From IMG/VR virus record IMGVR_UViG_3300025151_000036, positions 1-62,618 of that record: 62,618 nucleotides of DNA. One strand, 5' to 3'. Below the pieces are notes generated by a model. It saw only the letters and a program-made list of their open reading frames with translations, had not been told where the DNA came from and made no database searches. The position numbers and the translations under genes were made by a program. Shown piece by piece: positions 2,751-48,400 of the stretch; the first letter of the stretch is position 1; every line of letters begins with the position of its first letter. The DNA is from a virus.

Positions 2751-4098
2751 AAACAATTTTAGAAGTCATGTCTGACATGGCATGGTAATTTACACCAGCT
2801 TTAATTTTAACCGGGAATTTACCAGCTTTGCTCATTACGGTACGTAACTTTATTAATAAATCTTTACCATCTGATACGTCATAGTCAAATAATAACGAAT
2901 CATAAGTATATAAAATTAATTTTGTGTTATATTCTGTCAATAATTCATTCACATCATTAATCACTGATAAATTATATTCTGTTTCAGATGCTTGAAGCAT
3001 ATAGTTAAATAATTTATTAGGATTCATTTCATGTAAATGCTTTTTATATAGAGGTCGTTTCATTAACGGAGTTTTAATATAACCTTTCGTTTTAAATATT
3101 TTCCATAAGAACTCTATAAACTGCTTTGTTTTTCCGAAAAACGGTACTTTTGCAAAGTCTTTGTCAATACCTCCATATAATAATCGAAATGTAATTTTTT
3201 TAGAGTCTTCATATTCTTGTTCTGATATATCTTCCTTACCAAAATATTGTCGTGCAAAATATTCATGAATAGAACCATCTGGTAAATTATATCCTATGAT
3301 ATCAGCAATAAGTCTAGGGTGATATGCATCAAAGTCCATTTCAATCAACATACCACGTTCCCATCGGCTTACAAATGATTCGCGGCAGCCATCATCTTTA
3401 TTCAATGCAGCATAATTTACTCCACCAAATTTATTGGATGGTCTACCAGTAGTGGTCCATATATTATATTCTGATTGCGCTTTATTATATTTTATACCAT
3501 TTGCTTTAAAATGATTCACAAATTTTCCATAATCTACTTGTAATCCAGATCTTTCAATTGATGCAAAATTATCTGTTACTACCTGTTCATATTCTTCAAA
3601 ATCTTTTGTCTTTTCAAATGTATTATATGATTTCATAAACTCTTCACGCATTGCAATGCACCGTTCTATATGACATGTCATTGGTAACCAATCATATGTA
3701 TTAGTTTCATTATGCCACCACCGGTTCCAAACATCATGAGCAACCGTATTTGTTTCATTTAATGGTAACATTCGATGAGTTTGCCACCATTCTACCATAT
3801 CAGCGTCATAACACTTTATACCGGTAAAATTAACAAACCGTTTTTTAGCTAAAACATAGATATCATGGAGACTAGTAAGGTCTTGTAAACGTTCGATATT
3901 GAGGTTTAAACAATCTGTATGATGGAAAGGAACGATATAATCAACATCATTTACAATTGAATAAATGTATATAAAACATATACGAGTATTTGTATAATGC
4001 TGAAAAGGATCTGAATATATTGGTATCCAGAATGATGCCCCGGCTTTAAGCGATATTAATACTTGTTGTAACTCTATTTCGTCTTCAATTATTTGCAT
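2749..4098 (-). CDS. divergent family A (Pol I-like) DNA polymerase
   Basis: DNA polymerase of family A, about 449 aa, much shorter than E. coli Pol I (928 aa). Polymerase signatures run in the right order: WTTTGRPSN (215-223), motif A DFDAYHPR (255-262, with Asp255 in the place of catalytic Asp705), motif B KKITFRLLYGG (300-310, with Lys300, Phe304 and Tyr308), and motif C YTYDSLLFD (397-405, with Asp400 in the place of Asp882). Two positions are unusual: the Glu of DYSxxELR is His260, and the HDE triad reads Tyr-Asp-Ser. The first 100 residues look like a decayed 3'-5' exonuclease fold (strand, then YIVPFHH) without the DxE pair. A TTG three codons upstream (4107) opens the frame, but ATG at 4098 is the natural start; I see no clear ribosome binding site. 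It probably replicates or repairs phage DNA; classical T4-like phages use family B instead. Confidence 0.8.
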   Translation of the reverse strand: MQIIEDEIELQQVLISLKAGASFWIPIYSDPFQHYTNTRICFIYIYSIVNDVDYIVPFHHTDCLNLNIERLQDLTSLHDIYVLAKKRFVNFTGIKCYDADMVEWWQTHRMLPLNETNTVAHDVWNRWWHNETNTYDWLPMTCHIERCIAMREEFMKSYNTFEKTKDFEEYEQVVTDNFASIERSGLQVDYGKFVNHFKANGIKYNKAQSEYNIWTTTGRPSNKFGGVNYAALNKDDGCRESFVSRWERGMLIEMDFDAYHPRLIADIIGYNLPDGSIHEYFARQYFGKEDISEQEYEDSKKITFRLLYGGIDKDFAKVPFFGKTKQFIEFLWKIFKTKGYIKTPLMKRPLYKKHLHEMNPNKLFNYMLQASETEYNLSVINDVNELLTEYNTKLILYTYDSLLFDYDVSDGKDLLIKLRTVMSKAGKFPVKIKAGVNYHAMSDMTSKIV

Positions 4099-6988: not shown

Positions 6989-8444
6989 TTGTTATAGACC
7001 CTTCTCTATCATTATCTACAGTTCCTTCAACTAAGTCTGGAATATCATATACTGGGCTGGTAGTTTGTGGTCTATCTCCTAGGACTACACATGACATGGC
7101 AACACTTGTATACATTGGATGTTGTCGATTTTCATCAATCTCCCATGGTGTTTCATTATCCCAATCATATCCTAGATCTTGTATAATCATTGGCCGTTCA
7201 TCGAATAACTTTCCTATAGTAACATTTACCGTATTACCAAAAAATCCTTGTGAGCCATATGTTGGATGAGTTAATAAAGCTAATTTTCGTAATTTTTTCC
7301 ATATCTCTAGACCATCATTTTTATTTTCGATTACTACCATAAAATCAAATGATATGTTACGTTCAAATCCTGAATATTGATATCTTAAATCGGCTCTGCC
7401 TTGGTCTGCTGCTGAATTCCAACTTGGTGCAAAATTATCAGATAACATACCTAAATATGCTTTAAATTTTATATCAATTTCTCTAAAAGAATTACTAAAT
7501 TGAAAATCTATTAATGAATAATTTTCAGGGTTGGATATATCTTCTGTTAATCTCGTTTTATCAATTGTATCTATCAATTGTAACGTGCTATTAAAATTAC
7601 TTTTACGAGATGTTACTGCGTCATAATGCGTATTATTACCTGTTTTTCCGTCTCGTATCTCTCGGAAATCTATAATTGTAGTACTATGGTTACGTCTTGG
7701 AATCTGTCCATAAGACACAGCTTTATATTTACCTAATAATGATACTTCTTTCTTTGTCTTTTCAAATCCAGATATTTCAGGTGCAGTATTTCCTAATAAA
7801 CCCGGGTCTGATTGTAATTTAATTTCAAACTGATCTTGTAAATTTGCTTTGGTTGTATCTTCATATCTACGTATTGTGGTGGCTCCTATACCACCAACCG
7901 ATTTTGGTCCCGTAAGTCCAGATAATGTTTGAATGGCCTTACCAGGGAAATTATTAATTAAATTAGACTTAATTTGTATTTGCTCTAATGTAGCATTTTG
8001 CGGTAAAACCGAGTTGCCTATTATTAATTCGTTTGTTAATCGAATTAATCGATTATTATCTATTTGTGAATGTAATGGTGATGATTTTCGTGCTTTATGA
8101 ATTCCTTCATATGTCGAGCCAGGTGCTCGTACCACCGGTGGCATAAGACGATCAGTTCGTAAACCTAATGGAGCTCCTATTGTATTTGTGATAGGCGATA
8201 TTGGATCATATATTTTAGTTAAACCTATACCAGCTCTACCTGCAATATTTTCTGTGTTAGGATTCATTAATTGTTGAGCAAATTGCTTGGCAGTAAATAT
8301 AAGACCTTTTGGTGATAATAAGAATTTGGTTACTCGTGCAGTATCTCGAATAATTGCACGCGGAGAAGGTCGTCCAATAATTTTATCAATTTTTTGTGGA
8401 GTATCTTTGCGAGATAGATCGGATGTTAATTCAATTAATGCCAT
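6981..8444 (-). CDS. putative baseplate/tail tube-associated protein (487 aa)
   Basis: Tail protein encoded between the tape measure and the LysM-like protein. The first 280 residues are basic, low in recognisable motifs and may be extended. The last 200 residues form a compact domain: YSLIDFQFSNSFREIDIKFKA, FAPSWNS, YQYSGFERNISFDFMVV, then LALLTHPTYGSQGFFGNTVNVTIG and DWDNETPWEID. I associate that series (PSW, GF.R..sF.F, ETPWEI) with baseplate proteins at the tube-baseplate junction of marine myophages, the position of T4 gp48 or gp54. The start overlaps the tape measure stop as TAATG with an AGGAG ribosome binding site. Assigning it to one specific T4 protein would be guesswork. Confidence 0.6.
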   Translation of the reverse strand: MALIELTSDLSRKDTPQKIDKIIGRPSPRAIIRDTARVTKFLLSPKGLIFTAKQFAQQLMNPNTENIAGRAGIGLTKIYDPISPITNTIGAPLGLRTDRLMPPVVRAPGSTYEGIHKARKSSPLHSQIDNNRLIRLTNELIIGNSVLPQNATLEQIQIKSNLINNFPGKAIQTLSGLTGPKSVGGIGATTIRRYEDTTKANLQDQFEIKLQSDPGLLGNTAPEISGFEKTKKEVSLLGKYKAVSYGQIPRRNHSTTIIDFREIRDGKTGNNTHYDAVTSRKSNFNSTLQLIDTIDKTRLTEDISNPENYSLIDFQFSNSFREIDIKFKAYLGMLSDNFAPSWNSAADQGRADLRYQYSGFERNISFDFMVVIENKNDGLEIWKKLRKLALLTHPTYGSQGFFGNTVNVTIGKLFDERPMIIQDLGYDWDNETPWEIDENRQHPMYTSVAMSCVVLGDRPQTTSPVYDIPDLVEGTVDNDREGSITNG

Positions 8445-10516
8445 TATCGTCTCCTATATGAATCTGATGTTCGTATTGTTTTAGCAACTAATTGACCGTC
8501 CATTTCTATAACAGTACCCATTGATATTAATTCTCGCAACAATGCATTTGTTTGAGCAATTGCTGCCGCCACATTTCCTCCGCCACCACTAGAACCATGG
8601 CTTGGACTCATAGAAACGCCATCATTTCGAGTACCTTGGAATAATCCGCCTTCTCTTGGAGACATTACAACTGGACCACCATTAGGATCAATTGACAGGT
8701 CACCTACTTTTGACGCGTTTTTTATCATACCTACTCCGGTTGCAACTGCAGCTGCTGCTAAACCAAAACCAAGTATTGGAACTTTACCGAATGTGTTAAA
8801 TGCATTTTCAGCCATAGAAGCAATAGCTGTGCCGATTTTCTTTCGATATATTACACCCATTGTAATTGCTATACCAGTTAACAATGGTGCCATTACAGTA
8901 AATCCATCTACCATATATCCAACAACATTGGCTATACCTGTAAATATTTGTAATAACACTTTTCCAATTGGCATCAATGCATTAGATAAATCATCAGCTG
9001 CTGCTGAAAAATCTTTTGCAATTTGTCCGGTAAGTTCTTGTTGTGCTACTAATGTCTGCAATTGTTGTGGTGACATGTTTGTTATTTCTGCTGTTGTTAA
9101 TCCTAAATCTTTAGCAGCTTTTACTCTGGCTTCGTCACTTGTACCTAATTTTTCTTGAATTGCCATTGATTTGGTTAACTCACTTACAGTCATTCCAGTT
9201 GCTTTAGCTAATTGACGTTGAGCCAATGGCCGCATAGCTTCAAATTCTGCTAAAGAACCTACATTGGATAAAACTTCTTGAGTTGCTTCTGCAATTTTAC
9301 CATCTAATGCCAATTGCCGTGCTAAATCAAAGTTTACCATTTTACCAGTCATTGCCTGGAATTCAAATTGAGCTGATATAGAATCTTCAAAATTTAACAA
9401 GCCATCAGCCACTTTGGCCATAGTAGATAATTCTACTCCTAATTTAGCAGCTTGAACGGCTGCTTCACGTAATGCTTTAACATTACCTCCAAAGTATTTG
9501 GAAACTTCTTTAGCATTAGCTGCTATATCCTCAGTTACTTTACCAACTGATACTCCGGCTTTTAATGCATCAGCTGATACGGCTTGCAATGCTAATGATG
9601 CATCCTCACCTCCCATACCCATACGCATGAATTCATTAGTAACTGCGGCTGCCTTCTCTGCTCCTATACCAAATGCCTTTCCTGTTTCTGCTATATTTCC
9701 AGCAATTGCTCCACTCAACATGTTGGCATTACCAAATTCTTTAACCGTAGCTTTTTGTACTTCTAATATATCAGTGGATGTTGCTAAATTTAATTCACTT
9801 GAACGAGCTACAGATTTTGCTTCTTTTACCAATGCTTTGGATTGTGATAATGTGAGGCCGGTAGCTTCAGCTATGCCTTTTGCTTTCTTTTCAAAGTTTA
9901 CAAATACAGCAACTAGACCAGCTACTAATGCAGCTATAATCGTAAATGGGTTTATAAGTCCTTTAGCCGCTCCACCAAAAGCTTTTAATCCATCTGCGAA
10001 AGTCGCACCTTCTTGCATCATAGCAGCGCCGGCTGCGTTGAAAGAAGCAGTTAATCCATCTGTCAACTCATCAAATCCTAACAATTTGTTTAATGCTGCA
10101 CCACCTGGTAAAGCTCCAATAAACGATTTTGCTCCTTCTACTAATCCGGCCATCTGATCATTAACATTACCTACCGTTTTTCGAATGTTCTGCATTGTTT
10201 TGTTTTGTTGTTTTAACCTTTCAAGTACTTTCTGATTAAGTTTGAACGCATTCATTTCTGCATCATATTGCTGCTTTGATATTTTATATTTTTTTTCTCT
10301 TAATTGAGACATTTCTCTTGCAAGATCGCGTTCAGTCTGTGCAATTTCTAAACGTTGATCAGCTGCTTGTAAAATTTTAGCTTCATCTCTTAAGAGTTGT
10401 TGTTGAAGATCGGCAGTTTCGCCCATGGCATCACGATATAATGTAGCTTGTGCTGCTGCGCGCTCTAAATTAGAGGCCTGCTGTTTAGCGTAATCTGCGG
10501 ATTTTTTGTCTGCCAT
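8444..10516 (-). CDS. tape measure protein
   Basis: The 690-residue protein fits a tail tape measure, which sets tail length and is expelled at injection. Residues 1-120 are strongly coiled coil (Gln, Glu, Lys and Ala rich). A hydrophobic segment lies near 187-210 (LINPFTIIAALVAGLVAVFVNF). The centre is Ala-rich and helical, a second hydrophobic stretch lies near 515-560, and a Gly/Ser linker (GSSGGGG) precedes the C-terminus. T4 gp29 has 590 residues, so the tail should be of similar length or a little longer. It lies directly after the chaperone-like pair and before baseplate genes, the canonical place. No ribosome binding site is obvious at the ATG. I see no peptidase or lytic domain. Confidence 0.85.
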   Translation of the reverse strand: MADKKSADYAKQQASNLERAAAQATLYRDAMGETADLQQQLLRDEAKILQAADQRLEIAQTERDLAREMSQLREKKYKISKQQYDAEMNAFKLNQKVLERLKQQNKTMQNIRKTVGNVNDQMAGLVEGAKSFIGALPGGAALNKLLGFDELTDGLTASFNAAGAAMMQEGATFADGLKAFGGAAKGLINPFTIIAALVAGLVAVFVNFEKKAKGIAEATGLTLSQSKALVKEAKSVARSSELNLATSTDILEVQKATVKEFGNANMLSGAIAGNIAETGKAFGIGAEKAAAVTNEFMRMGMGGEDASLALQAVSADALKAGVSVGKVTEDIAANAKEVSKYFGGNVKALREAAVQAAKLGVELSTMAKVADGLLNFEDSISAQFEFQAMTGKMVNFDLARQLALDGKIAEATQEVLSNVGSLAEFEAMRPLAQRQLAKATGMTVSELTKSMAIQEKLGTSDEARVKAAKDLGLTTAEITNMSPQQLQTLVAQQELTGQIAKDFSAAADDLSNALMPIGKVLLQIFTGIANVVGYMVDGFTVMAPLLTGIAITMGVIYRKKIGTAIASMAENAFNTFGKVPILGFGLAAAAVATGVGMIKNASKVGDLSIDPNGGPVVMSPREGGLFQGTRNDGVSMSPSHGSSGGGGNVAAAIAQTNALLRELISMGTVIEMDGQLVAKTIRTSDSYRRR

Positions 10517-10522
10517 AATATA

Positions 10523-10783
10523 TTACATTCTGTTAATCATTGCTTCTAAACGAGGATCGATTGATCCATGCTTTTTTTTGTATGTCTTTAAATCATTTTT
10601 GAGTTCTTTAGCTATTTTATTCATGCTATCAGTGGATGCAATAAACTCTGGATCGTTTTCTAACTTCTTTAATGCCTTTCGTACCATTGGCCTTAAGAAC
10701 CATTTTAATAATTTTAATGATAATCCTTCATCAATGCGATTAATTTCATTGAGAGCCTTTTTTTCAAATTTACTTGTAGCCAT
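10523..10783 (-). CDS. small basic helical protein before the tape measure (86 aa)
   Basis: Unassigned 86-residue, Lys-rich, probably all-helical protein (FEKKALNEINRIDEGLSLKLLKWFLRPMVRKALKKLE). AAAGGAT eight bases before the ATG is a good ribosome binding site, and a variant of the recurrent AT-rich motif precedes it. It stands between the frameshift candidate pair and the tape measure, so a role in tail assembly, for example binding the tape measure coiled coil, is possible. Nothing in the sequence proves this. Confidence 0.65.
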   Translation of the reverse strand: MATSKFEKKALNEINRIDEGLSLKLLKWFLRPMVRKALKKLENDPEFIASTDSMNKIAKELKNDLKTYKKKHGSIDPRLEAMINRM

Positions 10784-10795
10784 ACAGTATTATCC

Positions 10796-10810
10796 TTTTA
10801 AATAAATATT
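10796..10810 (-). promoter_or_regulatory. variant of the recurrent AT-rich motif
   Basis: Coding strand AATATTTATTTAAAA followed by GGATAATACTGT and the ATG of the 86-codon gene; it overlaps the stop of the +1-frame ORF. Confidence 0.35.
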
Positions 10811-11123
10811 AACGACGGTTGATTTTAGGGGCCATGGCACGAGATTTAGATTTCATCTCTTTTATAGATTTTTCTCGTGATTTGTTCTGATCTTCAAATA
10901 ATTTGTTAAGACGGCGCATATAATATAACCTCATATATATAGGCATATTGCGCACTTCAGTATAAGAAAATGCTCCTTGACTATGATAAGTTAAATCAAA
11001 TATTTGATCTGCAACATTTAATCTATATTTACGCGTCAGGCCAAAAAAAGTCGAGTCCGATGGCAATTGGACTGCGAAAGGTATCACCGGACTCTCCATC
11101 CGGTACTTCAACTGATAAATCAA
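10809..11123 (-). CDS. overlapping +1-frame ORF, probable frameshift extension of the gp26-like protein
   Basis: The open frame overlaps the end of the gp26-family gene by 95 bases in the +1 frame. Its first codon is TTG with no ribosome binding site, and its first 27 residues merely shadow the other gene. Real protein probably begins at 11042 as GLTRKYRLNV and adds 77 residues: a helical domain with GAFSYTEVRNMPIYMRLYYMRRL, then a basic tail. This resembles the second part of tail assembly chaperones and gp51-like proteins. A run of seven T at 11043-11049 lies exactly where a +1 (or -2) slip would join the frames, giving a fusion of about 357 residues. Position between tube and tape measure is where such chaperone pairs sit. 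Independent initiation at ATG 11099 is an alternative. Confidence 0.6.
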   Translation of the reverse strand: MIYQLKYRMESPVIPFAVQLPSDSTFFGLTRKYRLNVADQIFDLTYHSQGAFSYTEVRNMPIYMRLYYMRRLNKLFEDQNKSREKSIKEMKSKSRAMAPKINRR

Positions 11124-11883
11124 TTTCTGGAGTAATAGTTTTAAGATATTTTCTTATTGCACGAGAATCAATAGCTAATAGTTCTGTATCAATGAATTTG
11201 CGAACTTTTACAAGGTCTTTATCTCCATCAACCCCTATAATAACATGTTTCAATGTCGTTGTTAATGTGGCATTACGCTTTAATTTCATTAAATTTTTAA
11301 TTTCAGCATCTATTTTACGTTGTTCTCTTTGAGTTAACAATTGTAACAATACTTTGCGTTTACTGGCCGGAAGTTGAAATTCGAATTCATTTTTGCCAGA
11401 TTCATGTGCAGACCAATCAATTTCTTTTTCTGCTAATTTAGTTAAGTCAACAGTAACCTTATGCTCCTCACCGGTCTTTGGATGAGTAATTGTAATCTCA
11501 TAATCTTTACCATATCCTAAAACTCTAGCAGCTATCATTACTGCATTTTTATCACATAATAACAAATCATTATATTCGATTGGAGTTACTATCAAAGCTT
11601 TAAATAATTTATCTAATACTACGCCTTGCTTAATAAATGAATCATTTGTAAGAATATCTTCTTCTTTTGCAGACATATACTTCATTTCTATTGTACCAGA
11701 ACGAAGTGGTGAACCTTCTGGATATAATTTTCCTTTACTTGGTAATTCAACCATTTCGGTTGGAAAATCGTAAACGTTTGTTTCTTCTGTAACATTTGAT
11801 TCATATTTTGCTTTTGCAATATCTTTTAATTGTTTATCAGATAGCGGCTTGATCGGATAATCATCGTTAACTTGTTGCGACAT
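11029..11883 (-). CDS. gp26-family baseplate hub/tail assembly protein
   Basis: A 284-residue protein of the family of T4 gp26-type baseplate proteins. The block MVELPSKGKLYPEGSPLRSGTIEMKYMSAKEEDILTNDSFIKQG (about 44-87) is its clear signature, followed by VLDKLFKALI and a domain with THPKTGEEHKVTVDLTKL. T4 gp26 (208 aa) acts in baseplate hub assembly. AAAGGA five bases upstream gives a good ribosome binding site. It is the first gene after the terminator that closes the sheath-tube group, and it runs into an overlapping +1 frame through a T7 run near its last codons (DFFWPDA). By position between tube and tape measure it could equally act as a tail assembly chaperone with a longer frameshifted form. 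Confidence 0.75.
   Translation of the reverse strand: MSQQVNDDYPIKPLSDKQLKDIAKAKYESNVTEETNVYDFPTEMVELPSKGKLYPEGSPLRSGTIEMKYMSAKEEDILTNDSFIKQGVVLDKLFKALIVTPIEYNDLLLCDKNAVMIAARVLGYGKDYEITITHPKTGEEHKVTVDLTKLAEKEIDWSAHESGKNEFEFQLPASKRKVLLQLLTQREQRKIDAEIKNLMKLKRNATLTTTLKHVIIGVDGDKDLVKVRKFIDTELLAIDSRAIRKYLKTITPEIDLSVEVPDGESGDTFRSPIAIGLDFFWPDA
11043..11049 (-). other. candidate slippery site, run of seven T
   Basis: In the gp26-family gene the codons GAC TTT TTT TGG hold seven T in a row, four codons before the stop. Reading on in the +1 (or -2) frame gives GGC CTG ACG CGT and joins the 77-residue downstream domain. Confidence 0.5.
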
Positions 11884-11974: not shown

Positions 11975-12463
11975 TTAGAATTGTAATATTGCATAATCAT
12001 ATTTCAATGTTAATTCGATATTAACTGGATCTTCAGTTGCCCAATCCATATCACCAAATGTTGCTGCTGATATAAATGCTCCTTTCAAAGTCCATTCTTC
12101 AACTTTGTCCCCAACCGGACCTAAAGTATTAAAAGTAATATCCTTTTTATAGAAATCTGAATATCCATCTCTACCTGTTACAGATTCATGATGTAAACGA
12201 ACCCATTCCATTACTGCCTGCGCTCCTGATGGAACAACTGGATCATATAATGTTACAGTTACATCTTGCCATCTAGATTTACCTTTTAACTTACGTTCAA
12301 CGTTAATATGGTCAAGAATAACTTCTCCTTGATCAATTGATGGACGTGATGCAGCTTTTATAAGGTACGCTGGAATACCTTCAATATACATGATAAACCT
12401 ATTAGCCATTTTAGGCTCATAAGCTGTATAAAATATTTCGGTTGGGTCAAGTAATTCTGCCAT
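11975..12463 (-). CDS. gp19: tail tube protein (gp19-like)
   Basis: At 162 residues this matches T4 gp19 (163 aa), which stacks in hexameric rings to form the inner tail tube. Characteristic parts are EPKMANRFIMYIEGIPAYLIKAASRPS (17-43), LDHINVERKLKGKSRWQDVTVTLYDPV (50-76) and the C-terminal VNIELTLKYDYAIL. It follows the sheath gene by about 40 bases, the usual order, and is followed by a strong hairpin terminator. AGAGGA lies about ten bases before the ATG, with an exact copy of the recurrent 14-base motif just before that. It should be among the most abundant virion proteins. Confidence 0.93.
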   Translation of the reverse strand: MAELLDPTEIFYTAYEPKMANRFIMYIEGIPAYLIKAASRPSIDQGEVILDHINVERKLKGKSRWQDVTVTLYDPVVPSGAQAVMEWVRLHHESVTGRDGYSDFYKKDITFNTLGPVGDKVEEWTLKGAFISAATFGDMDWATEDPVNIELTLKYDYAILQF

Positions 12464-12507: not shown

Positions 12508-14637
12508 TTATTCTGGAAATGATGCACCAGTTGGTAATATATTAAAGTCAACTACAATGAATTCAGCTGTTTTTGCCGGCTGCATGAATATTTGACCTTT
12601 CATTTGGTTTCTATCAATTACATCTGCAGTATTGTTTGATTCATCCATTACTACTTTAAATGCATATAAACCTTGTCTTTGTTGTATGTTTTCAAAATAT
12701 GGATTAACAATACTTAAGAATCTATTTCTAGTTGCTGCCGTATTATTTTCAAATACTAAGAATTTAGTAGACGATGCAATGAATTTCTTAGCAGCTATTA
12801 ACAATCTACGCACATTTACACGATCTAATGCCGATGCTTTCTTTTGTAACGTTTTTTGTCCAAATACGGTAACACCTGCATTAGGGAACGTTGCAATAGG
12901 ATTCACATTTGAATCATACAAAGTATCTCTGTTAGCATGAGTTAATTTACGTTCTGCCTGAACTGCGATATCAATACCACCTCTATTTAATCCTGCAGGT
13001 GCAAACCATGGTGCCGCTACTCGATCATTAAATGCATATACCGAAGGTATCACAGTAGATGCTGGTACCCATACATTACGTCCTAATTCATTATCAGGTA
13101 TTTTTATCCATGGCCAATATTCAGCTACATAATTAGAATCTCTTGCTTCTGCCTTAGCAGTTACATTTGGTATAGATGTTTCACCGTATTTAACTGGATC
13201 CATTACTAGGAAACAATCACCGCGATCTTCTACCATATTAACTGCTTCTGTTAATACAGCAGCATGATTAGTTTCACTATCACATAATCCTGGTAAAGTT
13301 AATAAATTAATATCATATTCATCTTGATTTTTTAATAATCGAATTGCATCGATATATGCATTTTTATCTGATGTTAATCCTAAATTAAATCCTTGTACAT
13401 TTGTATCTTCAATTTCATTATAGAACTTTCTAGGATGCTGAACTGCCCCATCTGCTCCTCCTGCAAATGCACCAGATGTTGCTGCTGGCAATGATGCAGA
13501 TAAATCAGCATTTCTAATGTTTCCATTTTCATCCAAGTAATTTAATGTTTTTTGATTTACATTACTAACACGTACAAATTTAGATCGATTTGGATAATCA
13601 CCTTGATATGCAATATAAGGATCGGTAGTACCAACACCTGCTATTGTCGCTTTTTGATCGCCTATCACTCTAGCAATATAATTTGTTGAATTAGGATCTA
13701 ACGTAACATTATTATATTGTTCTACAATTTTCATTCTATTTTTTGTATCATCGCCACGACGTATCAATAATTGGAAAGTACCTTTATTTGCATTTACATT
13801 ATTAATTTCCCATCGTAAATTGTTTGCTGTACCATTTGATAGTAATTCATTTGTACCAATAGTTCCTACACTATTTTGATCTAAACCAAAAGATAATGTT
13901 TCTAAAGTAAAACAATTTCCATTTGATGTTTTTCCGGCGCCACCTGCCAATGTTAATACATCGCTCATATTATTAGCTGATCCAGTATCAACAGATATTG
14001 AATTTCCTTCAGAACCAGCACTTGATGCAGATAATCCTAATTTAGTAGTTAAATCAACTGCTGTTACTCCAATGGCCGCGGTATTTATTTCAGATACTAA
14101 TTTATCTAATACGTCTTCGGCATTTGAACCAGTATTAAAGTAGTATATATTTCCAGTATCAACAGGAATACCGCCGGCTGGATCAGCTGCTATAAATCTA
14201 TATTCTGATCCACCTACTGTAATTTGAAATTCATCATCAGGTGTTTGACCATGGTCATTCAGAAGTACAAATTCTCCAACTGCTTTACTAGCATCAGAGC
14301 CACCCACAGTAGATCCAGAAACGGTTGCTGTTGCTGGTGCTGCTGAAGCATGCATTGTACGTACAACTGTTAACGTATCAGCGTATTTTAAATACTCTTG
14401 AGCAGAATAATTAGTTAAATATTTATATGAATCTTTACTAGTACCAGATCCGGATTCAAAAACTCCTCCAAATATATTAACAAATTCTGAATAACTTGAT
14501 ACGGTTACTGGTATATTCGCCGGACCTTTTGCTGTAGGTCCAATTACCGCAGCGCCTATTGCTGCGACACCTGCCGGTAAAAACGATTGGTCTACTTCGT
14601 TAGTAAAAACGCCCGGTGATATTATTTTTTCGGCCAT
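12508..14637 (-). CDS. gp18: tail sheath protein (gp18-like)
   Basis: Contractile tail sheath subunit, 709 aa (T4 gp18 has 659). The N-terminus ISPGVFTNEVDQSFLPAGVAAIGAAVIGPTAKGPANIPVTVSSYSEFVNIFGG is typical of the family. The C-terminal core has LIAAKKFIASSTKFLVFENN, NRFLSIVNPYFENIQQRQGLYAFKVVMDE and ending FIVVDFNILPTGASF, the segment that exchanges strands between subunits and touches the tube. Between them is a variable beta-rich insertion (about 90-330) that would face outward. TAGGAG supplies the ribosome binding site. Placed directly before the tube gene, as in T4. Confidence 0.95.
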   Translation of the reverse strand: MAEKIISPGVFTNEVDQSFLPAGVAAIGAAVIGPTAKGPANIPVTVSSYSEFVNIFGGVFESGSGTSKDSYKYLTNYSAQEYLKYADTLTVVRTMHASAAPATATVSGSTVGGSDASKAVGEFVLLNDHGQTPDDEFQITVGGSEYRFIAADPAGGIPVDTGNIYYFNTGSNAEDVLDKLVSEINTAAIGVTAVDLTTKLGLSASSAGSEGNSISVDTGSANNMSDVLTLAGGAGKTSNGNCFTLETLSFGLDQNSVGTIGTNELLSNGTANNLRWEINNVNANKGTFQLLIRRGDDTKNRMKIVEQYNNVTLDPNSTNYIARVIGDQKATIAGVGTTDPYIAYQGDYPNRSKFVRVSNVNQKTLNYLDENGNIRNADLSASLPAATSGAFAGGADGAVQHPRKFYNEIEDTNVQGFNLGLTSDKNAYIDAIRLLKNQDEYDINLLTLPGLCDSETNHAAVLTEAVNMVEDRGDCFLVMDPVKYGETSIPNVTAKAEARDSNYVAEYWPWIKIPDNELGRNVWVPASTVIPSVYAFNDRVAAPWFAPAGLNRGGIDIAVQAERKLTHANRDTLYDSNVNPIATFPNAGVTVFGQKTLQKKASALDRVNVRRLLIAAKKFIASSTKFLVFENNTAATRNRFLSIVNPYFENIQQRQGLYAFKVVMDESNNTADVIDRNQMKGQIFMQPAKTAEFIVVDFNILPTGASFPE

Positions 14638-17597: not shown

Positions 17598-18454
17598 TGT
17601 AAAGCTGTTCCTACGCTTTGATTGGTAGCAGAAAAATAACCAAGCGTTTTTCCAAAACTAATATGATGTGGTATAAGTCGTGGGTTAGCAAATGCTATAA
17701 GCTTTCCGTTATTATTATTGTCTACTCTCGCAGAAAGATAAAGTATGGATTCATTGGAAAATTTTACATACATTCTAAGTCGGTTCCAAACGCCGGCATG
17801 TACGTCTTGTCTCCTAGAATAAAATGTAGCGCCAGTACGTGGAGAATCCAGGCGAAATCCAGTGTCGCCTGACCATGGGTTAAAATCACCATCAATTTGT
17901 GAATGTTGATTGCCATCAAAATCATAATTACCTTGTCCATCACATCCAAACAAGAATAACTCTACTGACAGAGGCGAATTTGGAGGATTTGTATCAGCAA
18001 AAGGAGCCCAAGTGTAACTAGATATTCCAGTTTCAGTTTCGGTCCATGTATTAGATTGAATAATACGTGCCCATATACTAAATTCCCAAACTACATCAGC
18101 TGCTTGGTCATAACCAAAAAAACCTACAAAATTATGTGCTATCATATAATTTAGATCGCCGGTGTATTGATTTGTATAAGTATCATTATTACCAGCTAAT
18201 ACTGCAAAATCATAAGTACTAGGATCGTTTTGTGGTGATACAGCTGATATACGTTTAACAAAACCAGTATTAGTAGTTTGCCATGGGATAGGGGGAGTGA
18301 ATGCATTCGGTGGCATCCAAGCTTCATAGTTTGTATAAGGCTGTGCTAATGCAGTTGATTGCATTGCTCTACATCTGGATGATCCTAGGTATATAGGATA
18401 TGACGGGTCCCGGGCGCTTCGGCTACCACTTAAGAATGATAGATTACTTGGCAT
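17594..18454 (-). CDS. virion-associated protein, possible adhesin (286 aa)
   Basis: Unassigned 286-residue protein. It is rich in aromatic residues, Asn, Ser and Thr with almost no charge clusters, and probably forms a beta-sandwich (VWEFSIWARIIQSNTW, WNRLRMYVKFSNESILYLSARVDNN, which look like jelly-roll strands). Its start lies 11 bases inside the end of the giant 3701-codon fibre gene, with AGAGGT upstream, so the two are translationally coupled. Such coupling after a long fibre is typical of receptor-binding tips or fibre assembly factors. A hairpin terminator overlaps its stop codon. Function is inferred from position and composition only. Confidence 0.65.
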   Translation of the reverse strand: MPSNLSFLSGSRSARDPSYPIYLGSSRCRAMQSTALAQPYTNYEAWMPPNAFTPPIPWQTTNTGFVKRISAVSPQNDPSTYDFAVLAGNNDTYTNQYTGDLNYMIAHNFVGFFGYDQAADVVWEFSIWARIIQSNTWTETETGISSYTWAPFADTNPPNSPLSVELFLFGCDGQGNYDFDGNQHSQIDGDFNPWSGDTGFRLDSPRTGATFYSRRQDVHAGVWNRLRMYVKFSNESILYLSARVDNNNNGKLIAFANPRLIPHHISFGKTLGYFSATNQSVGTALQ

Positions 18455-21400
18455 CGTTTAACCTCTTTTTGAGAACGTCTACTTCAGTTTTTAATTCTTT
18501 AATGGCCTCGATTAAATGAGGAACTAACTGTTCATATTGCACTGTTTTATATTCAGAATCATCTCCGGCGGGTGCATGTAAAGGTAACTGCATTTCTTTC
18601 ACAACTTCTGGTACATGTGGTTCCACTTGCTGGGCAATTACTCCTAATTGAGGTCCGGTGTCTCGATATTTCCAATCATATCGAACTCCTTCCAAGTTAC
18701 AGATGGTATCCAAGCTACCGGTTAACAATTGTATATTTGTTTTTAATCGTTTATCTGATACAGTAGTTGAAAATGCGATAAGATCATCTGCAAAATGCAC
18801 ATGCTGATCTTGATTAACACGTATTACTTCGTTTGATGTGGTATGCGGATCTTGCCCATTTGGAGCAGTACCAATAGATAAATACCCACCTTTTGCACTC
18901 GAGCCATGAGCCTCTGATGCAAATGCTGCTATATATGCAGATGATTGTAAAATATTATCTGGTATTGTGGTGGTATCGTTATCTGCAGAATCAAATCCTA
19001 TACCTCCTAATAATTCATCGGTACCGGTGTTAGAATCGTTACGTATAATTTGTATTCCTTGACTACCGTCATTTCCAGATGTAATAATATCTAATTTATT
19101 AACTGGTTCCCAGCCATTATCACCTATAGTCATGTTTCCGGCAGTTTTAATTGCGGTATTGGTAATTTTAGCTCTTAACGTATTATTCGTTACAAATTGA
19201 ATTTCGTTGTCGAAAACGAAAGATATAGTGTCACTGGTATCACGTCCTAACACTAAGGAGCTATTATATATTCCAGATACATGATTTAATGTTGACTCTA
19301 TACTTACTGCACCAGTAGCTGAATTATAATCTATATCATTACCTGCAGTTATTAGAGTCGGCGTGCCGCCTCCACCAGAACCATAACTACCGGTATACAT
19401 TAATTCATCAGTTGAAGTATCGTATACCAATGCCATAATATTATCATTATGAGTAGTTGTTTCAGATAACCCGGCAAATAACTTTCCAGATGCACTTATG
19501 TCACCAGTTACTGTCAATGCTTTAGTTGGTTTAGTTGTTCCTATACCAACTTGCTGATCATGATCAATATACATTGCTCTGGTAACGGTACCTCCATTCT
19601 TAGTCCAAAAAGACAACGCTCCTTCACTTTCAGAGCCGGCATCATCAGAATTATCATTTACCCAAGATATCCTAGCCCATTCGTTACTGTTATTAGAATC
19701 ACTAGCCCACATGGAAATATGACCTTCTGTAGTTGCTTTAATATCTCCTCCGGGTACATCTCTTTCTAATTTTACTACTTGTACAGATGGTTGACCTGAT
19801 GAAAAGGCTGTATTGTCTACTACATGTAGCTTGGCTGCCGGAGATGGTGTTCCTATACCTACATTACCACTAACTATGAGGTGACCTGATGCACTTATGT
19901 TACCGGAGGCTGTTATATGGCTCTGAGCAATAATTGGTTTATAAAATGTAGATTTTGATTCAGATATTTCTAATACCGGTACGCTATCATTCTGAAATGC
20001 ATGTTTTGTAGATTCGTATATTATCCTACTAGATGCTCCGGAGGATGCATCTGCTATCAAAATTTGATTTTTCAGTTCTCCTGATACGTTTCCTAATTTA
20101 AGTTGTTTACTAACATCCATTAGAATTCCATTGGCAGGAGTTCCTATGCCGGCGGTGTTATCTCGTCGACCTATAAAAGCATCAAATCCACCAAACATTA
20201 ATATTGGGAAAAAGCTAGCTACATCGTCTGCAAAAGACTCTGAATATGAAAAGTCTATAAGATTAGACTCATTATCTATACCATATGGCCGTATCTGTAA
20301 TGCCGATGCGGTTATGCTAGTATGCACTTTCAATGATCCAGAAATTCCCACATCTACAGATGATGTTAATTCTTGACCGGAATCATGCCAATGTGTATTT
20401 GTAACATAAGATGCGGTAACTGCGTTTGTAACCGTACCAATTATATTATACGGAGCACCATGTATCTGAATTTCTTTAATTGCAACACCAGACGTTCCAT
20501 GGAAGCCATCAAAAAAGCGAAATTCAATATAATTAAATGGTTCAGCATTATTAAACGTTATGGTACGATCATGATTTGCAACTGCAGTAGTGAAAACATC
20601 TCCTGCATCTAGTACAGTCTCGTTAATATATTCTCCAGTCTCAGTGTTATAATCATCAAAGCCTACTACAGTGATTTTAGTAGCGTTATTGCCGGAATCA
20701 AACTGTACAATCCTATATGAGATAGGAATTGGTGCATATCCTAATTTTTTTTCTAACTTATATATTATCTTAGGATTACTATTCATTCTGGCGGCATTCC
20801 ACCTAAGATGTTGGCCTATGGAAGTCGCAGATGAAACAGGAAACGCATTATCAAATGCCTTTTCAGAGCTGTCTGCATCACCGGTGGTAATAAGAACTTT
20901 AGAATCATCATTAAACCCGGTATTAAAATCGTTACCTAAGCCCAGATAACTTTCTTCTTCTTTCCATATATCTGCTGCAGTAAGATCGTTAAGTGGTAAT
21001 ATACCGTTAGTGCTGCTAAGGTCTGGGGTAACAGTTAATGTACCGTTAATAACTGCATTACCATAATATGGAAATGTATCTTGTGCATTTTCAGCATAAG
21101 ATGCGGTCATAACATAAGATGCGGTTGCAGCATAAGATGCGGAAGTTACAAATGATGCGGTTGCAGCATAAGATGCGGAAGTTACAAATGATGCAGATAC
21201 CGCATATGATGCAGAGTTTGCTGATTCTGCATATAAAGCATAAGAACCGGTTCCTACAAATTGAGTTGCTGTAACAATACCAGCATCAAAATATTTAATA
21301 TCATAAACTATAATTCCAGTGTCTAATGCAGATTTTGGTACAGAATATCGTATATAATTAAATGTTTGATGATTTTCAAATTGGAAAGTACGAGTCGGAG

Positions 21401-24400
21401 AAGTATTATATCCAGAACTATCAACTGGTCCTCTATATATTCCTGTCCAATTAGTACCGTCCTGTGAACCAGAAAGTTGGTGTTGGCTTGGCCACCAGCT
21501 GTTAGTCCAGCTTGGGAATAAGACTTCAAATTTATTTATTATAGGTGAATATCCTAGTTTTGATTCTACGTTATAATCAATAGTAACTGAATCAGTTATA
21601 TCACTTTTGCTTATTCCATAACCAGTTGATATTAGACCATCAAATACGCGACCTAAACCATGGTAAATTGCATCCATACCTGTTGTAGACGGGTCTGGAC
21701 TTTGTGTAACAAATAATGAATCTACAGAAGTCAATAAATCTAATTCAGTAGTTTTAAACTCAATTGAGCCAGTAAACTCTGCTCTTCCTGTATACGGAAA
21801 TACCGGTGCTGCATTTAATGCATGAGATGCTGTTACTGCGGTTAATGCAGTTAATGCATGAGATGCAGTTACTGCTGTTGCTGCTGTTGTTGCATTTTCA
21901 ACGGTACCAAATATATTTGTTTCTGATGAATATAATATAATTTCTTCTATTTTTACACCATCCGTTCCATGGTATCCATCAAGGAATTGAAACATTATAA
22001 ATTTAAATGGCATGTTATTATCAAACTCCACAGTGCGATCATGAGCTAGGCTGTACTCAGTAGTACCAGGGTCTAAAGTTGTAATACCTGCCATACCGGT
22101 ACTATTGAATCCGTATACTTTAATTTTAGTAGCGCTCGAATTAGGGTTTAAAAAAGATATATAATATTTGTTAAGGATCGGAGCATATCCTAATTTTCTT
22201 TCTAAGTTATATATTAAATAAGGACTTTCATCTAATTGTGATGTCGTCCATTGTAGGTAGTTTGCACTAATGCCAACAATACTGTCAAATGCATAATGTG
22301 GATTATCTGGATTCATACCAACTGAAAGAACAATAGACTCACTAACGTCAAAGGCTCCTATTATATCGCCAACCACATTACCTTCTTCAATATTCACATC
22401 ATCTTCAGTAAGATCGCGGATCGGTAGTACACCCGATCCATTATCTACAGTTAATATACCATTAATAACTGCTCCACCATAATATGGAAATGGATCTTGT
22501 GCATTTTCAGCATAAGATGCGGTCATAGCATAAGATGCGGTACCTTGCAAACTACCCGTAAATGAATATGCATTAACAGAACCTGAAATACCAATTGATT
22601 TTGATGATGTTAATTCAGTACCAGTATCATACCAAGACCTAGATGCTTCTGTTAAAATATTTTCACCGTTATAAGTAAATGTGCTACCAGTAATGCTCAC
22701 TGAACCAGTAAATGAATGTTGAGTAACTGCCGCATCTGATCCAGAACCAAAATTAGTTGAACCTGACGTTACTGCAAGATCATCAATAGTTACTGCTATT
22801 CCTTGCAATCCAAATATGCTACCGCCAATTCCTAAATCTCCTTGAACATTTGCACCACCAGTTAATGTTAAACTAGACGCTGTTATATTAGATGAAGCAG
22901 ATATGTTAGTAGCAGATATATCGGTAGTTACATAAATGTTCTGTGCATATATATTAGCGCTAGAGGATATATCACCTATCACTTCTAATGATGCACTTGG
23001 ATTAATTGTTCCTACGCCTATTCGTCGATGAGTAAATGCATCAGCTTCTGTTACATCATATACAGTACAAGATGCTAAGAACCAATGAACTGGCTCAGTA
23101 TATACTAATCCATCTGATGGTACAATATAAACATATCCAGCATCGTCATAAGTATCGGTGGTACTAGATCCTACATGATTTATACGTGCATACCATTCCC
23201 ATTTACCAGTACCAATACGATCAGTTAGCCAATATGTGGTTTTGTCTGTACCTTGATGATTTTCTTCGTGTACTAACTCGTGACCAACTGGTACCAATGC
23301 TTTAAATATCTGCACATATGTATGATTCATTTGGTTGGAAGATTGAACAAAGAGATCGGTAGAATTAGAATTTGGATTACGATATCGTTGTATAAATCCA
23401 CCTAATCCCGGTGTAACTGTTCCAACGTTACCTGTTCCATCATATGATATACGTAACACATAACCAGATGAATTCGGTACACCTAACGAATCTAAATTAG
23501 TTTCTCCATTACCTTCATGTAGTAAATTTGCCCAATTAACAGAATCTGCATCAAAGTTAGTTGGATTAGCTAAATCTAGATTCCATTTGAATCGCGTAAT
23601 TGTTACTACATCACTGCCGGCGTTATTATATACTAAAACTCCATTTGTACCATCTGTAAAATCTGTATCTAATCTTAAACATTTACCAGAATTACGTATT
23701 GATGACACAATAGGATTGAATGCTCCTCGTGTAATATTGGCATTACTAAAATCTAATATTTTACGATTATTGAAAGCCAAATTACCAATAATATCAACTG
23801 TTTCTGTCGGGCTTTCAGTTCCTATACCAACTCTATGGTTTGAATTATCTGGTATTAACATTAGACGGCCATCATGTTGATCAGTACCTCTAACTCGTAA
23901 TAATACATTTCCTTTGCCGGTATTATCATTTGCAGCATCTGTTATCTCTAATTCATTTCCTCCTGACGCTACTTGCAAGAAAACGGCATTTGCTTTTTTA
24001 CCAATTACTAAACGACTTCCATGGAAAGATGCTAATTTAGCGAATGTACTATCATTAGACAATGGACGAATATGTATTGCATCTTCACTATATATTGCTC
24101 CGGATGCTGATACTTCGCCAGTAACTGTTAATTTTTTTGCTGGAGATGAATTTCCTATACCAACGTAAGAATTACCGGTAAGTATGTTCATGTTACTAAC
24201 ATGAGATCCATTTGTTGGACCAATAGATATTCTTCCGTTTTCAGCTGAAACATATCCTATTGTATCATTATCTGCAATTTGTATACATGCTTTATTATTT
24301 GTTGATACGAATGAAGCAACTGTACCACTTTCTGATATTTCTACATCCAATTTATAACTTGGTGATATCGTTCCTATACCAACTGAACCAGAAAAATAGA

Positions 24401-27400
24401 AATCGTTAGAATTATATTTATATCCAGCTACAAAATAATCTTTTGGTACTACTAAAAATCCTCCGGTTTCATCTTCAACTAGTTCTCTATTTCGACGATA
24501 CAAACTTGTATATTCTACACTTGGAGATCCTATTATCCGTGTTGGTGAGTTATCACCTTCAAAAATAATACCACCACCTACTTCATCAGATTCTCCTAGG
24601 TATAATTTTCCAGTACCATTAGCATTACCTCGAATTTCTACAGTGGCTATTTGATCATCTGCACCATTCTGTATTCTTAATGTGGAACTACTTGGCTCAA
24701 ATAAGAATTGTTCATCCACATACAGCTTTTCATGTGCTGTACCACTACCACTTACAAACGGTATACGATGAAATTCTTTTACAGAGTCTGGTACTAAAGT
24801 GATGTCAATATTATCTGCGTTTGCTGTGGAATTAGCAGATTCTAGCGCGGCAATAGATTTGCTAACATCTGCATATCCAGTTATTGACAACGTACCGCTC
24901 ACATCCAAAGAACCAGTAATTTTAGTGTCTAGTGATGATGTGATATATGTTGTGGCATCATGCCAAATGTATCCATCTGCGTTAGCCGCAAATTCTGCAT
25001 AACTGGCAGTATCTGCAACTAATGCATGAGAAGCTGATACGGCAAATGATGCAGTACCTTGCAGGCTTCCAGTAAATGATGTGGCTTTAACATTGCCATT
25101 AACTTCTAATTTTGCATCAGGCTCTGTAGTTCCTATACCTACGTTACCACCATTGAAATAGGATTTGCCATAACCTCTTACAACAACATTTTGAGTTCCT
25201 GCTTCATTATATAAATTAATTAAACCTCCATTTGCGTTATCGTACCCTATTAATGCTTTTTGAACTCCAGAAGAATTAAGTATATTTATTTTAGAATCTC
25301 CACCTGAACCTGGCTTTAGTTCTAATAATTCAGTTGGGCTAATCGTTCCAATACCAACTTTACCAACTCCAATTTTATCGCGGTCTGCTTCAACAGTTAA
25401 TATTGCGCTAGGAGTTGCTGCGGCATTTGCATCTCCACTGCCTTCTGAACCACTATGATATCCTACATGCCAAGTTTTACCATCGTTGTTATATCCAACT
25501 CCGCTAAACCATTGTTTGGTATTAACAGTATCTCTCCAATAAACTCCTCCGCCTCTTGTAGAATTTGTTGAGTCTATTACTACTCGGCCATGTGTATGCC
25601 CATTGCCGGATGAGTTTAAATATAAAGTAGCTTGTGATGAAGTGATTTGCGCGTCACCGTAAACATCTAACTTATAAGCTGGTGATGTAGTTCCTATACC
25701 TAAGCCAGTCGATGTCAAACGCATTTTTTCTGTAGCATTTCCTGTAGAGAAAGAAATACTATCGTTACTATTAGCCGTTCCTATTTCTAGTAATTGAGCA
25801 CTGTGACCCCACCTGATAAATGCTCCAAAGTTATCACTTGGAGATGTCCAAACTAAACCACCAGTTGCAGAGTCCGGATTGATAAATCTTAAATAATTAG
25901 TTGTATTGCTTTCAACCAACATGGATGTTCCAGTGTCAACACTGCTAACACCAGAACTACCAGCTGTTACTTGTAATTTAGCTAAAGGTGAAGTTGCTCC
26001 TATACCAACATTACCATCATGAGTAATTCTCATTCTTTCTCGTGATCCACTGGTAGCAAATGCAATATGAGAACCTGCTTGATTTGATTTATTTGATAAA
26101 CGTAAATAACCACCATTACCATCGTATTGAAGCTCACCAAAATAACCAAACATCATTGTTGAATGATACGTTTCATCATATTTTAATTCAAATTGCTGAT
26201 ATGTATCTTGATATGCTTTAAAAGCACTTGTAGCTCCAGTAGTAGAAATATGTAGTTTTGATGAAGGACTTGGTTCTCCTATACCAACTTCGCCAGTATC
26301 AAGAATACGAACTCTTTCAGTATTGTTTGTGAACATACGTATGTGTTCATTAGCAGTTGTTCCTATCTGAAAATGTTCATCATCAATTTTAACGAATGCT
26401 TCGTTTGAGTAATTGTTATGAGCATATAATTTAATACCGGCTGCATTTTCATTGCCGGCACTGCCAGTTGCATGTATGTAAAGTTGTGCGTCACTATTTC
26501 CTGCTTCATATAAATGTAATAGATTGGATGGCGAAGTTGCTCCTATACCAACTTTACCCGTAGAATCAACACGTAGCCTTTCGGTATCAGATGTTCTGAT
26601 TATAAAATCTCCATCTGAAGCGTTACCAAGTTGAACTCTATTTAAACCATCGTTATAAATATCTAAAAAAGTAAAGGTGTTATTAGAGTTTAAAATTGCT
26701 GTTACATTTTCTGAAGAAGAGATTTCTAATTTTGCACCAGGCGTAGCAGTTCCTTTTCCAATACCAACCTTTCCTTGATAAAACCACATGTCATAGTTTG
26801 AGTTATTGACATCGTAGAAACCGTAACCATGATTACTTGCATGAGGGACTAATTTGAATTGAGCTCCGGCAGGTTTTCCTACTCTAATATAACCATCTTG
26901 CACATCTAATTTATCTTGAGGGTTATCTGTTCCAATACCAACTTTACCGCCGTCCATTATTAATTTGCTACCAGTAATAAATACGGATCCGGTAAAACGG
27001 TGATTTGTTTGTGCAGGATTTGATCCAGAACCAAAATTAGTAGATCCGGATAACACTGATACTTGATCAAGTGTAATTCCAAAGCCATTTAAACCAAATA
27101 TTGAGCCACCTTCTATAGATAAATTACCTCCTATTGTGGCATCTTCAGTTGTATTCAATGTTCCGGAAACTAGTAAAGATCCAGTTATTTGCACATCTGT
27201 AGATGCTGTAATATAAGTAGTTCCGTTATACCATAATGCATCTTCAATATTTAATGCAGTATCTGCAACTAATGCGTGAGAAGCTGATACGGCAAATGAT
27301 GCGGTACCTTGCAGGCTTCCGGTAAATGATGTGGCTTTTATATTGCCATTAACTTCTAATTTTGCATCAGGTTCTGTAGTTCCGATACCAAATTTACCGG

Positions 27401-45453: not shown

Positions 45454-48400
45454 CTAAATACTTGTATCTTCTATTTTAAATGATGTAATATTTAAATTAG
45501 TTGCACTACTTTTTATTCGTATACGACTTAATACTGTTCCTCTAGTAAGTGATGTATTCCATGTACCAAACGACATTCGTATAATATGAGTATTAACTCC
45601 AGAATTAGATGTTACTTCATATTCTGAAACTCCAAATGCAAGAAGTGATGACCAATTTGGTTCGGATGGCGAACCTCTCGATCCTTCATCACCACTACCG
45701 CCGGTTGCAGTTGCCCAATCAGTACCTGGCGTTTCAGTATCAGATACTCCGGCAATGCCTCCTGGAATTTTTACATCTATACGTATTGGCAACCCATCGT
45801 AATGTGCTTGAGTTCCTTCGCCATCTATATCATCTGCATATAAATCAGCACGATCAAAGTTTCCAACTATAGTTATTTGTAATGCTGAATTATTTCCTTT
45901 CTTACCAATGTAAAAACCTCTATAATAATATCTATCACCAGTTGCATTTGAATAATCAATTAAAGTTGGTATACTAGTTACATAATCAGTATTTGGATAT
46001 ATTAACGATCCATACCAAGCAACTTGCAAGTCAGTTGTATCACTTATATTAGCATTTGAATTGTAATCCGCGAAAGCAGAACCGGTCCACCATGCAAAAT
46101 TATTTTTAGTTTGATTACCAGAATATCCTAACCCACCTGGATCGTTACTTGTACTTAAAGTATCAATAGTATTTTTATCCCATCGATAATCTTCAGACCA
46201 AAAATATTCATGTTCATCTGTAGATGCTTGGAATCCGGAACGGTTATCCGAATCGATAAATCGACCTAAATTTATTTCGGTACCAGTAGCATCTTTATCA
46301 AATGAATTTGCTGCACTGTAGTTACGCGAAAAATGTTTTATTGATACGGCACGAATATCTCCAGTTGGTGATACAGTGTTACCGGATGAAAGATCTTTTA
46401 TAGTTGTATCAAAACTTGCCGAATCATTAACAGATGGTAACAAATCACCATCAGTACCAAAATTAAGTCCAGAATCAGTTGTTAAATTATGATCCGTAGC
46501 TAAATTACTGCCGGCAAATAATAAAACGGAATCTGGTGTAGTTTCCATTATGGTATTGGCTTTATCTGGATATGTTGAACCAACAATTCCAGTAAATGCA
46601 TCTTTCAAAGTAATGTTAACATCTTGACCTTTTTCAAAGAAACTTACTCCGGATAAACTAAATGTTGGTTCTGTACCAGTTGTTGAATAACTTGCTGTTG
46701 CCGTTGCACGCGTTATTGGTAAAGTTGTATTATCATCGTAATACCATTCAAATGGTTGCCAATGCTGATTAGGCTTATCATCAGAGAATGAATGAGTGAA
46801 ATCAAGTCTGTTATAGCCATCGTACAATTTATCATCTATTTCAATACGAGCTGACCAACCTTGATATCCATGGCGATAAAACGTTCCAGCGTTATGTATA
46901 CTTTGCGATACTCCATTAAATGGTCGTACCTGCGTTATAATTAATCGACCTTTACCTGAATGCAAGTGATCGCCATTTGGTGCTGCAAATGATGCTGTTC
47001 CTTGATCTGGCCAGATATTATATATAGGTTGCGGACTTTCTTTCCATGATGGAATAAATGATGATGATAAATCATAATTTACTACAACACGTCCATTAAT
47101 TTTAACTATTAAAGATCCACTATCACCAAAATCAAATAACCTGTTATTATCACCATAATTTCCGGTAGATGCCGGAGTGAATGGATTAAACGACATTGAA
47201 TAATTTGTAGGCCCAGTTTCTGTATCTTTTGCCATTACAATATTATCAACAACTGTTCCTGCAGGTTCATTACTTTTATAATTGTTATTTTCAAATCCTT
47301 CTGGTAATGTGGCTCTGTATAATCGTCTAGTATTACCGTCGACGGATGGCACACTTATTCCAGTAGCGCTATATACAATTCCAGTTGTATTATGACTGCC
47401 TGCACCTGCTGCGCCCCAATATTTACCTTCCATACTTTGCGGTTTAGCAGGAATTACTGCAAATGTTAACGGAGAATTGCCAGATGAACCACTACCAGGT
47501 AATATATCAGAACCAGATACATTAATAGTAAAGTATTCTACTTTGGTATAATCATCCATGTAACTATTATATATTGTTAAAGAACCGGTATCCTGGCCAG
47601 AGGCGTTCGCATTTACAGGACTGAAGTCCAGATCTGGATCTGTCTCTTTATATAATATATTTAAATGATCAGGAAATGTTAATACACTTTCTGATGTTAT
47701 GGTCGGTGCTGATGCTGATATACCTGATATTATACCTACTACTAAATTTGATGCTTTATTATATGTAACATACTTATCAATATCTACAGATGATGACCAA
47801 TACACATTAGTTAGAGTCGGCGTTACAAATACAGATGCGGTAGGCGAACCAGTGACTGCTAATATGGCATGTGATAATTCATCCGATGATTTATTGTTTT
47901 CAAATTCATGTTGTATATTGTTAATATTTAACGTTTTTTCACCAGGCGTTGTTTGTATAGGTATAAACGATGATGTATAAGCAACGCTCGAAGAACCATG
48001 TGTATTATACATTTGTTGTGATAAAATTGATGCGATATCGGCAGAACCAGTATGTAATCGTACTGTATGTGATCCACCATATCCAGCAATTGTGAATATA
48101 CTTGCGGTATGATGAGGTCCAAATGGTTCTGCGATATCTGCTAATAATCGTACACTTGTTAATTGTTGTTTTGCAGTTGTATTTGGATATCCGGTATTTG
48201 CTGTATGATCTGTTTCTGTTACAGTATTACCATGCAGTATTGTAGTGGCACGCGATACCGTTCCTACACGTGATCCAGAAAATGTTTCTGCTTCTATGCG
48301 AATATTTGTTATTTCGGTAGGCGGTGTATTAGAAATCTGTATGGTACAATCGTTGGGGGCACCAAATTCAATACCATCAGAATCCATATATATACCAGTA

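Follow-up and report, generated by a model that had tools for sequence, protein, structure and literature searches.

A probable programmed +1 frameshift linking the two parts of a tail assembly chaperone gene in an uncultivated T4-related phage lineage

Can a phage protein domain that has no convincing start codon of its own be made as the extension of a protein encoded just upstream in another frame? This question is raised by two overlapping open reading frames (ORFs) on the minus strand of the IMG/VR virus record IMGVR_UViG_3300025151_000036, which was analysed as one stretch of 62,618 nucleotides (the window). The upstream ORF (11883..11029) encodes a protein of the gp26 family of 284 residues; the ORF that follows lies in the +1 frame (which equals -2) relative to it and ends at 10809. 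An earlier note, made from the letters alone, had given the coordinates and frames of both ORFs correctly and had taken the pair for the chaperone of the phage. Our analysis leads us to conclude with high confidence that a single gene encodes both forms of a tail assembly chaperone, a programmed +1 frameshift extending a short form (TAC-N) into a long one (TAC-NC). We hold it very probable that the frameshift occurs and that the two ORFs form the tail assembly chaperone. The features that carry this reading belong to the sequence, namely the frames, the slip site and the offset, the relatives that lack a start, the selection in the +1 frame, the gene order and the family.

The +1-frame ORF opens with a TTG (11121-11123) that is preceded by no AGGAGG-like sequence, as had been observed before. 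In the 0 frame the junction reads GAC TTT TTT TGG CCT GAC GCG TAA, i.e. the T7 run (TTT TTT T, 11043..11049, minus strand) is located where the earlier note had put it, and four sense codons separate the second Phe codon from the TAA that ends the short form (11029..11031). If one base is skipped, the reading becomes GAC TTT TTT [T] GGC CTG ACG CGT AAA TAT and leads into a domain of 77 residues, termed here TAC-C (10812..11042), whose stop codon is at 10809-10811. We infer both the occurrence of the slip and its efficiency, as follows. Most ribosomes would stay in the gp26 frame, stop at the TAA (11029) and produce TAC-N. In a minority, the tRNA-Phe would be in the P site on UUU (11044-11046) with the next codon, UGG, undecoded, and it would slip forward by one base, from UUU to UUU across U7, so that base 11043 is skipped. 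Reading would then resume with GGC CUG ACG and give TAC-NC of about 357 residues, with the helical TAC-C. If lambda gpG/gpGT is a guide, the tape measure protein would be coated by TAC-N, and TAC-NC would bring in the tube subunits. No phage-encoded tRNA genes bearing on the slip were found in the window.

We note that the T7 run alone is unremarkable, as TTTTTTTGG occurs twice in the AT-rich window against a mean of 1.7 in shuffled sequences; it is the conservation of the run, not its occurrence, that exceeds chance. A scan of IMG/VR gave 80 homologous loci, and the usable set of 82 is made up of IMG/VR loci, two isolate phages (Flavobacterium phage immuto and Microcystis phage Mel-JY01) and the window. 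The loci are 46-100% identical, and 48 non-redundant representatives were retained that share less than 85% nucleotide identity with each other. The downstream domain begins at the T run and lies in the same +1 frame in all 82 loci, in other words the slippery site shortly 5' of the first-frame stop and the frame offset are both kept; this is the alignment of homologues that the earlier note had named as a check. At each of the two slippery positions 47 of the 48 representatives have TTT and one has CTT, and the base after the second codon is T in 48/48. The strongest synonymous-conservation window of the whole gp26 gene coincides with the slip region (difference +0.27; the 262 windows have a mean of 0 and an sd of 0.06, which puts this one about 4.4 SD above the mean). 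A DNA search for the exact sequence GGAYTSGACTTTTTTTGGCCTGA found 77 stretches; among the 73 newly fetched IMG/VR stretches that carry it, 70 continue into the +1 domain and 3 end at the contig end. Variant slip sites (CTTTTTT, TTTCTTT, TTTTTTC and TTCTTTC) occur in other loci.

The upstream ORF belongs to PF12322 (E=3.6e-7, 30.5 bits against a curated cut-off of 24.5) and matches the baseplate hub family phrog_150 (E=2.9e-10). TAC-N and TAC-C were folded as separate parts. The AlphaFold model of the gp26-family part (pLDDT 82.7) has the fold of the SP-15 baseplate hub subunit (Foldseek E=5.5e-18), and its further matches include proteins annotated as 'Baseplate hub assembly protein, T4-like'. 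The TAC-C model (pLDDT 87) consists of a helix, a short helix and a long helix; a structure search with it gave nothing below E 0.001 (best E 6.6e-3), and among its weak matches is the 'tape measure chaperone' of Citrobacter phage Moogle (E 0.5). No homologues with a solved structure were found. In the alignment of 38 TAC-C sequences homology starts from the first residues, FGL, at the T run, and the pN/pS of 0.20 indicates purifying selection; the second frame is selected at the protein level and has no start of its own at a conserved place.

The TAC-C ORF of the window has no match in Pfam or PHROGs. Its profile matches a cyanophage domain (E=1.2e-4, profile-match probability 55%), which in turn matches the profile of the T4 gp51 tail (E=1.5e-6, 90%); when the window-clade proteins were compared directly with T4 gp51 or its tail, the profile match did not reach significance. 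At the level of sequence profiles, the link of TAC-C to the T4 gp51 tail runs via cyanophage gp51. The 'gp51/chaperone-like' domain of the earlier note corresponds to TAC-C alone and not to gp51 as a whole, since T4 gp51 is a full gp26-like domain (PF12322 at 1-201, E=3.9e-52) plus such a tail (phrog_634 at 147-246), encoded in a single frame.

The neighbouring genes, all on the minus strand, place the pair in a tail module. Upstream there are a tail sheath gene (12508..14637; phrog_23, E=9e-74) and a tail tube gene (11975..12463; phrog_4542, E=2.8e-25). The downstream neighbour (8444..10516, 690 residues) is a probable tape measure gene judging from its position, its size and the way in which its syntenic counterpart in Flavobacterium phage immuto is annotated; its product has no direct family match in Pfam or PHROGs. 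The order is thus sheath, tube, gp26, TAC-C domain and tape measure. The pair therefore lies between the tail tube and tape measure genes, as it also does in loci L001 and L002 (immuto), and this is the canonical place for tail assembly chaperone genes. An ORF of 86 codons (10523-10783, minus strand), with sub-threshold family matches only, separates TAC-C from the tape measure gene, and a small ORF is found at the equivalent place, after TAC-C, in HTVC008M and phiM19 as well. The gene order and the family assignment, together with the published T4 gp26/gp51 chaperone pair, are the grounds on which we regard the two parts as very probably a tail assembly chaperone, as had been proposed.

A further conserved element of 12 nucleotides lies directly 5' of the slip site (11050..11061, minus strand); it reads ATCGGACTCGAC in the window and ATCGGATTGGAC in the clade consensus. 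Its codons run against the bias of the gene: ATC is used in 24/33 homologues against a background of 13%, GGA in 34/41 against 40%, TTG in 26/30 against 17% and GAC in 32/32 against 17%, where the representatives are related and the binomial values are not to be read as probabilities. The stretch is also kept in loci L052, L053 and L056, none of which has a start codon in the +1 frame, so a +1-frame protein initiated upstream fails to explain it. A signal at the RNA level would explain its conservation. A search of the window clade for RNA structure 3' of the slip was negative: the mean MFE z was -0.52, RNAalifold gave no consensus pairs and there was no Rfam match. Nor was a strong Shine-Dalgarno-like stimulator recognised. 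A purine stretch (GAG GTA TCA TTT, in L068 and L086) was considered as a Shine-Dalgarno-like stimulator and rejected, as it is absent from the window's own group.

The earlier note had left the direction open as '+1 (or -2)'. The frame offset stands, and between the two directions the variant slip sites lead us to favour +1. A -2 shift at the same U7, in which the P-site tRNA would move back by two bases and give DFFFGLTR with one extra Phe, lands in the same frame; the back-slip from UUU to UUU is feasible in the window and in most homologues, and -2 shifts are known from phage Mu tail genes and at GUU_UUU sites (PMC5009743, PMC10885494). However, re-pairing after -2 would be mismatched in Streptococcus phage GXN1 (TTC TTT CGT, L004) and in an uncultured huge phage (TTT CTA TTC, L003), whereas a +1 move from UUU to UUC is cognate in both. 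All variants (CTT TTT T, TTT CTT T, TTT TTT C and, with the slip on the first codon, TTT TTT A) fit +1, and we regard the -2 shift as unlikely. The interrupted or shorter runs also bear on transcriptional slippage, by which a mixed mRNA pool would be made at the homopolymer of seven T and the long form would be translated from altered mRNA. A run of seven bases is short for this process, and the +1 arrangement is kept in TTTCTTT (immuto), in TTCTTTC (GXN1) and where there are six T (L031), which makes slippage of this kind very improbable. A homopolymer is an error-prone place too, but 82 loci from independent assemblies agree, the isolate genomes of Flavobacterium immuto and Microcystis Mel-JY01 agree with them, and the downstream part is under purifying selection, i.e. 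a sequencing error or a broken gene is already refuted in practice.

There is also the view that the two parts are separate proteins, TAC-C being translated by coupling from an internal start inside gp26. Candidate +1-frame TTG, ATG and GTG codons do exist upstream in the window (11123, 11099 and others) and in many relatives, and the distant relatives Pseudomonas Cygsa01 and Vibrio D495 have a TAATG restart. Since 26 of the 48 representatives carry a +1-frame ATG upstream of or near the slip, internal initiation may occur in some of them. On the other hand, six of the 48 have no ATG, GTG or TTG from the opening of the frame to 10 codons past the slip, and elsewhere the position of the candidate starts is not fixed. 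The +1-frame peptide 5' of the slip shows no family-wide conservation, and a Shine-Dalgarno sequence is absent; the codon-independent conservation has its centre at the slip site. Homologues in which the two parts are always separate and have clear starts, which the earlier note had named as the case against a frameshift, are not what the window clade presents: several loci have no usable start, and homology begins at the T run. In our judgement separate translation is very improbable, to nearly the same degree as transcriptional slippage. The programmed +1 frameshift is also in agreement with distant relatives, as SP-15, LIS04, GXN1 and RM378 have a +1-frame continuation at UUU-Y or UUU-U. 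When the joined window-clade product is aligned with that of SP-15/GXN1, the match spans most of its length (E=3.7e-25); the last domain alone gives E=1.4e-7.

T4 gp26 and gp51 have been identified as TAC-N and TAC-NC, and poly-T -1 signals have been described in T4-like TAC-N genes (Vladimirov, Gautam and Davidson 2022, as cited in PMC10885494 and PMC12846349); an earlier review had listed T4 as the exception to G-T frameshifting (PMC5009743). As the citing papers attribute the T4 gp26/gp51 relation to Vladimirov et al. 2022, we dropped it as a new finding. The T4 pair resembles the window in its gp26-family domain, the tail-domain extension, the location in a tail-assembly gene block and the presence of a short and a long form, but T4 has two paralogous genes on opposite strands whereas the window has one gene and a frameshift.

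Closer in layout are the gp26-gp51 loci of cyanophages and pelagiphages (S-PM2, HTVC008M and 80 IMG/VR loci), where a poly-T slip site likewise ends gp26 and an overlapping TAC-C has no upstream start. In these loci, however, the slip site is U UUU UUY and TAC-C lies in the -1 frame, whereas in the window clade it is in the +1 frame, not the -1 frame, in 82/82 loci. All 80 cyanophage-type loci (L095-L174) carry TTT TTC shortly 5' of the gp26 stop and encode the gp51 domain in the -1 frame. This layout is shared by HTVC008M, Aeromonas CC2 and Desulfovibrio phage 7757, and these three lack any start codon within 15 codons of the slip. In the cyanophage-type loci the residue that follows TTT TTC in the 0 frame can be Ala, Glu, Val, Gly or Asp, but the -1 codon is CGN (Arg) in nearly every locus, an indication that ribosomes are reading the -1 frame before they reach any ATG. 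A hairpin is located about 10 bases 3' of U UUU UUC in these loci, e.g. GGUCC-AUAU-GGACC; its 5 base pairs covary, with changes on both sides in 5/5 pairs and a covariation score above all 500 shuffles, whereas no structure was found in the window clade. In Synechococcus phage S-SCSM1 (L090) an 11-nt insertion after the gp26 stop (around 3685-3700), absent in relatives, shifts gp51 out of the -1 frame; it is either a sequencing error or a lost frameshift.

Among the G-T frameshifts of long-tailed phages, lambda gpG/gpGT differs from the window in direction, lambda being -1 and the window +1, and we claim no sequence similarity. Known +1 sites are CUU-U in E. coli prfB (RF2) and CCC-U in Listeria phages. 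These sites and the window are alike in that a single P-site tRNA moves +1 onto an overlapping cognate codon, and CUU-U, as in E. coli prfB, is also present in Flavobacterium immuto. They differ in that the waiting codon of the window clade is UGG or UAY rather than a stop or rare codon, and in that no Shine-Dalgarno-like stimulator was recognised. We found no published description of the +1 direction in the uncultivated clade or of the 12-nt element that violates codon bias, Vladimirov et al. 2022 being represented here by the papers that cite it. As far as the literature shows, with the same limit on that source, the kind of system is known, and what is new is the +1 direction in the window clade and the conserved upstream element. 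We tentatively suggest, with somewhat more doubt than belief, that the 12-nt element AUCGGAUUGGAC 5' of U7 may stimulate the +1 slip without a 3' structure or a classical Shine-Dalgarno sequence, and that, in the course of gp26-family history, the chaperone frameshift may have changed its direction from -1 to +1 or the reverse.

With these results, tail assembly chaperones made by frameshifting would be known from a further T4-related lineage, which is widespread and uncultivated and to which this marine tailed phage belongs. One chaperone family would then reach its two forms by four routes, i.e. a +1 shift, a -1 shift, a TAATG restart and gene duplication, which would make the gp26 family a natural series for studying how the direction of recoding switches, and the conserved upstream element a testable candidate for a +1 stimulator. 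The TAC-C part is absent from, or mis-started in, the GenBank annotation of Flavobacterium immuto (L002), Pelagibacter HTVC008M (L177), Aeromonas CC2 (L181) and Listeria LIS04 (L093). Elsewhere in the window there are two very large minus-strand ORFs. One, of 4106 residues (45454-57774), has no Pfam match; the other, of 3701 residues (18444-29549), carries a C-terminal Peptidase_S74 chaperone domain (PF13884) and is probably a giant tail fibre or spike.
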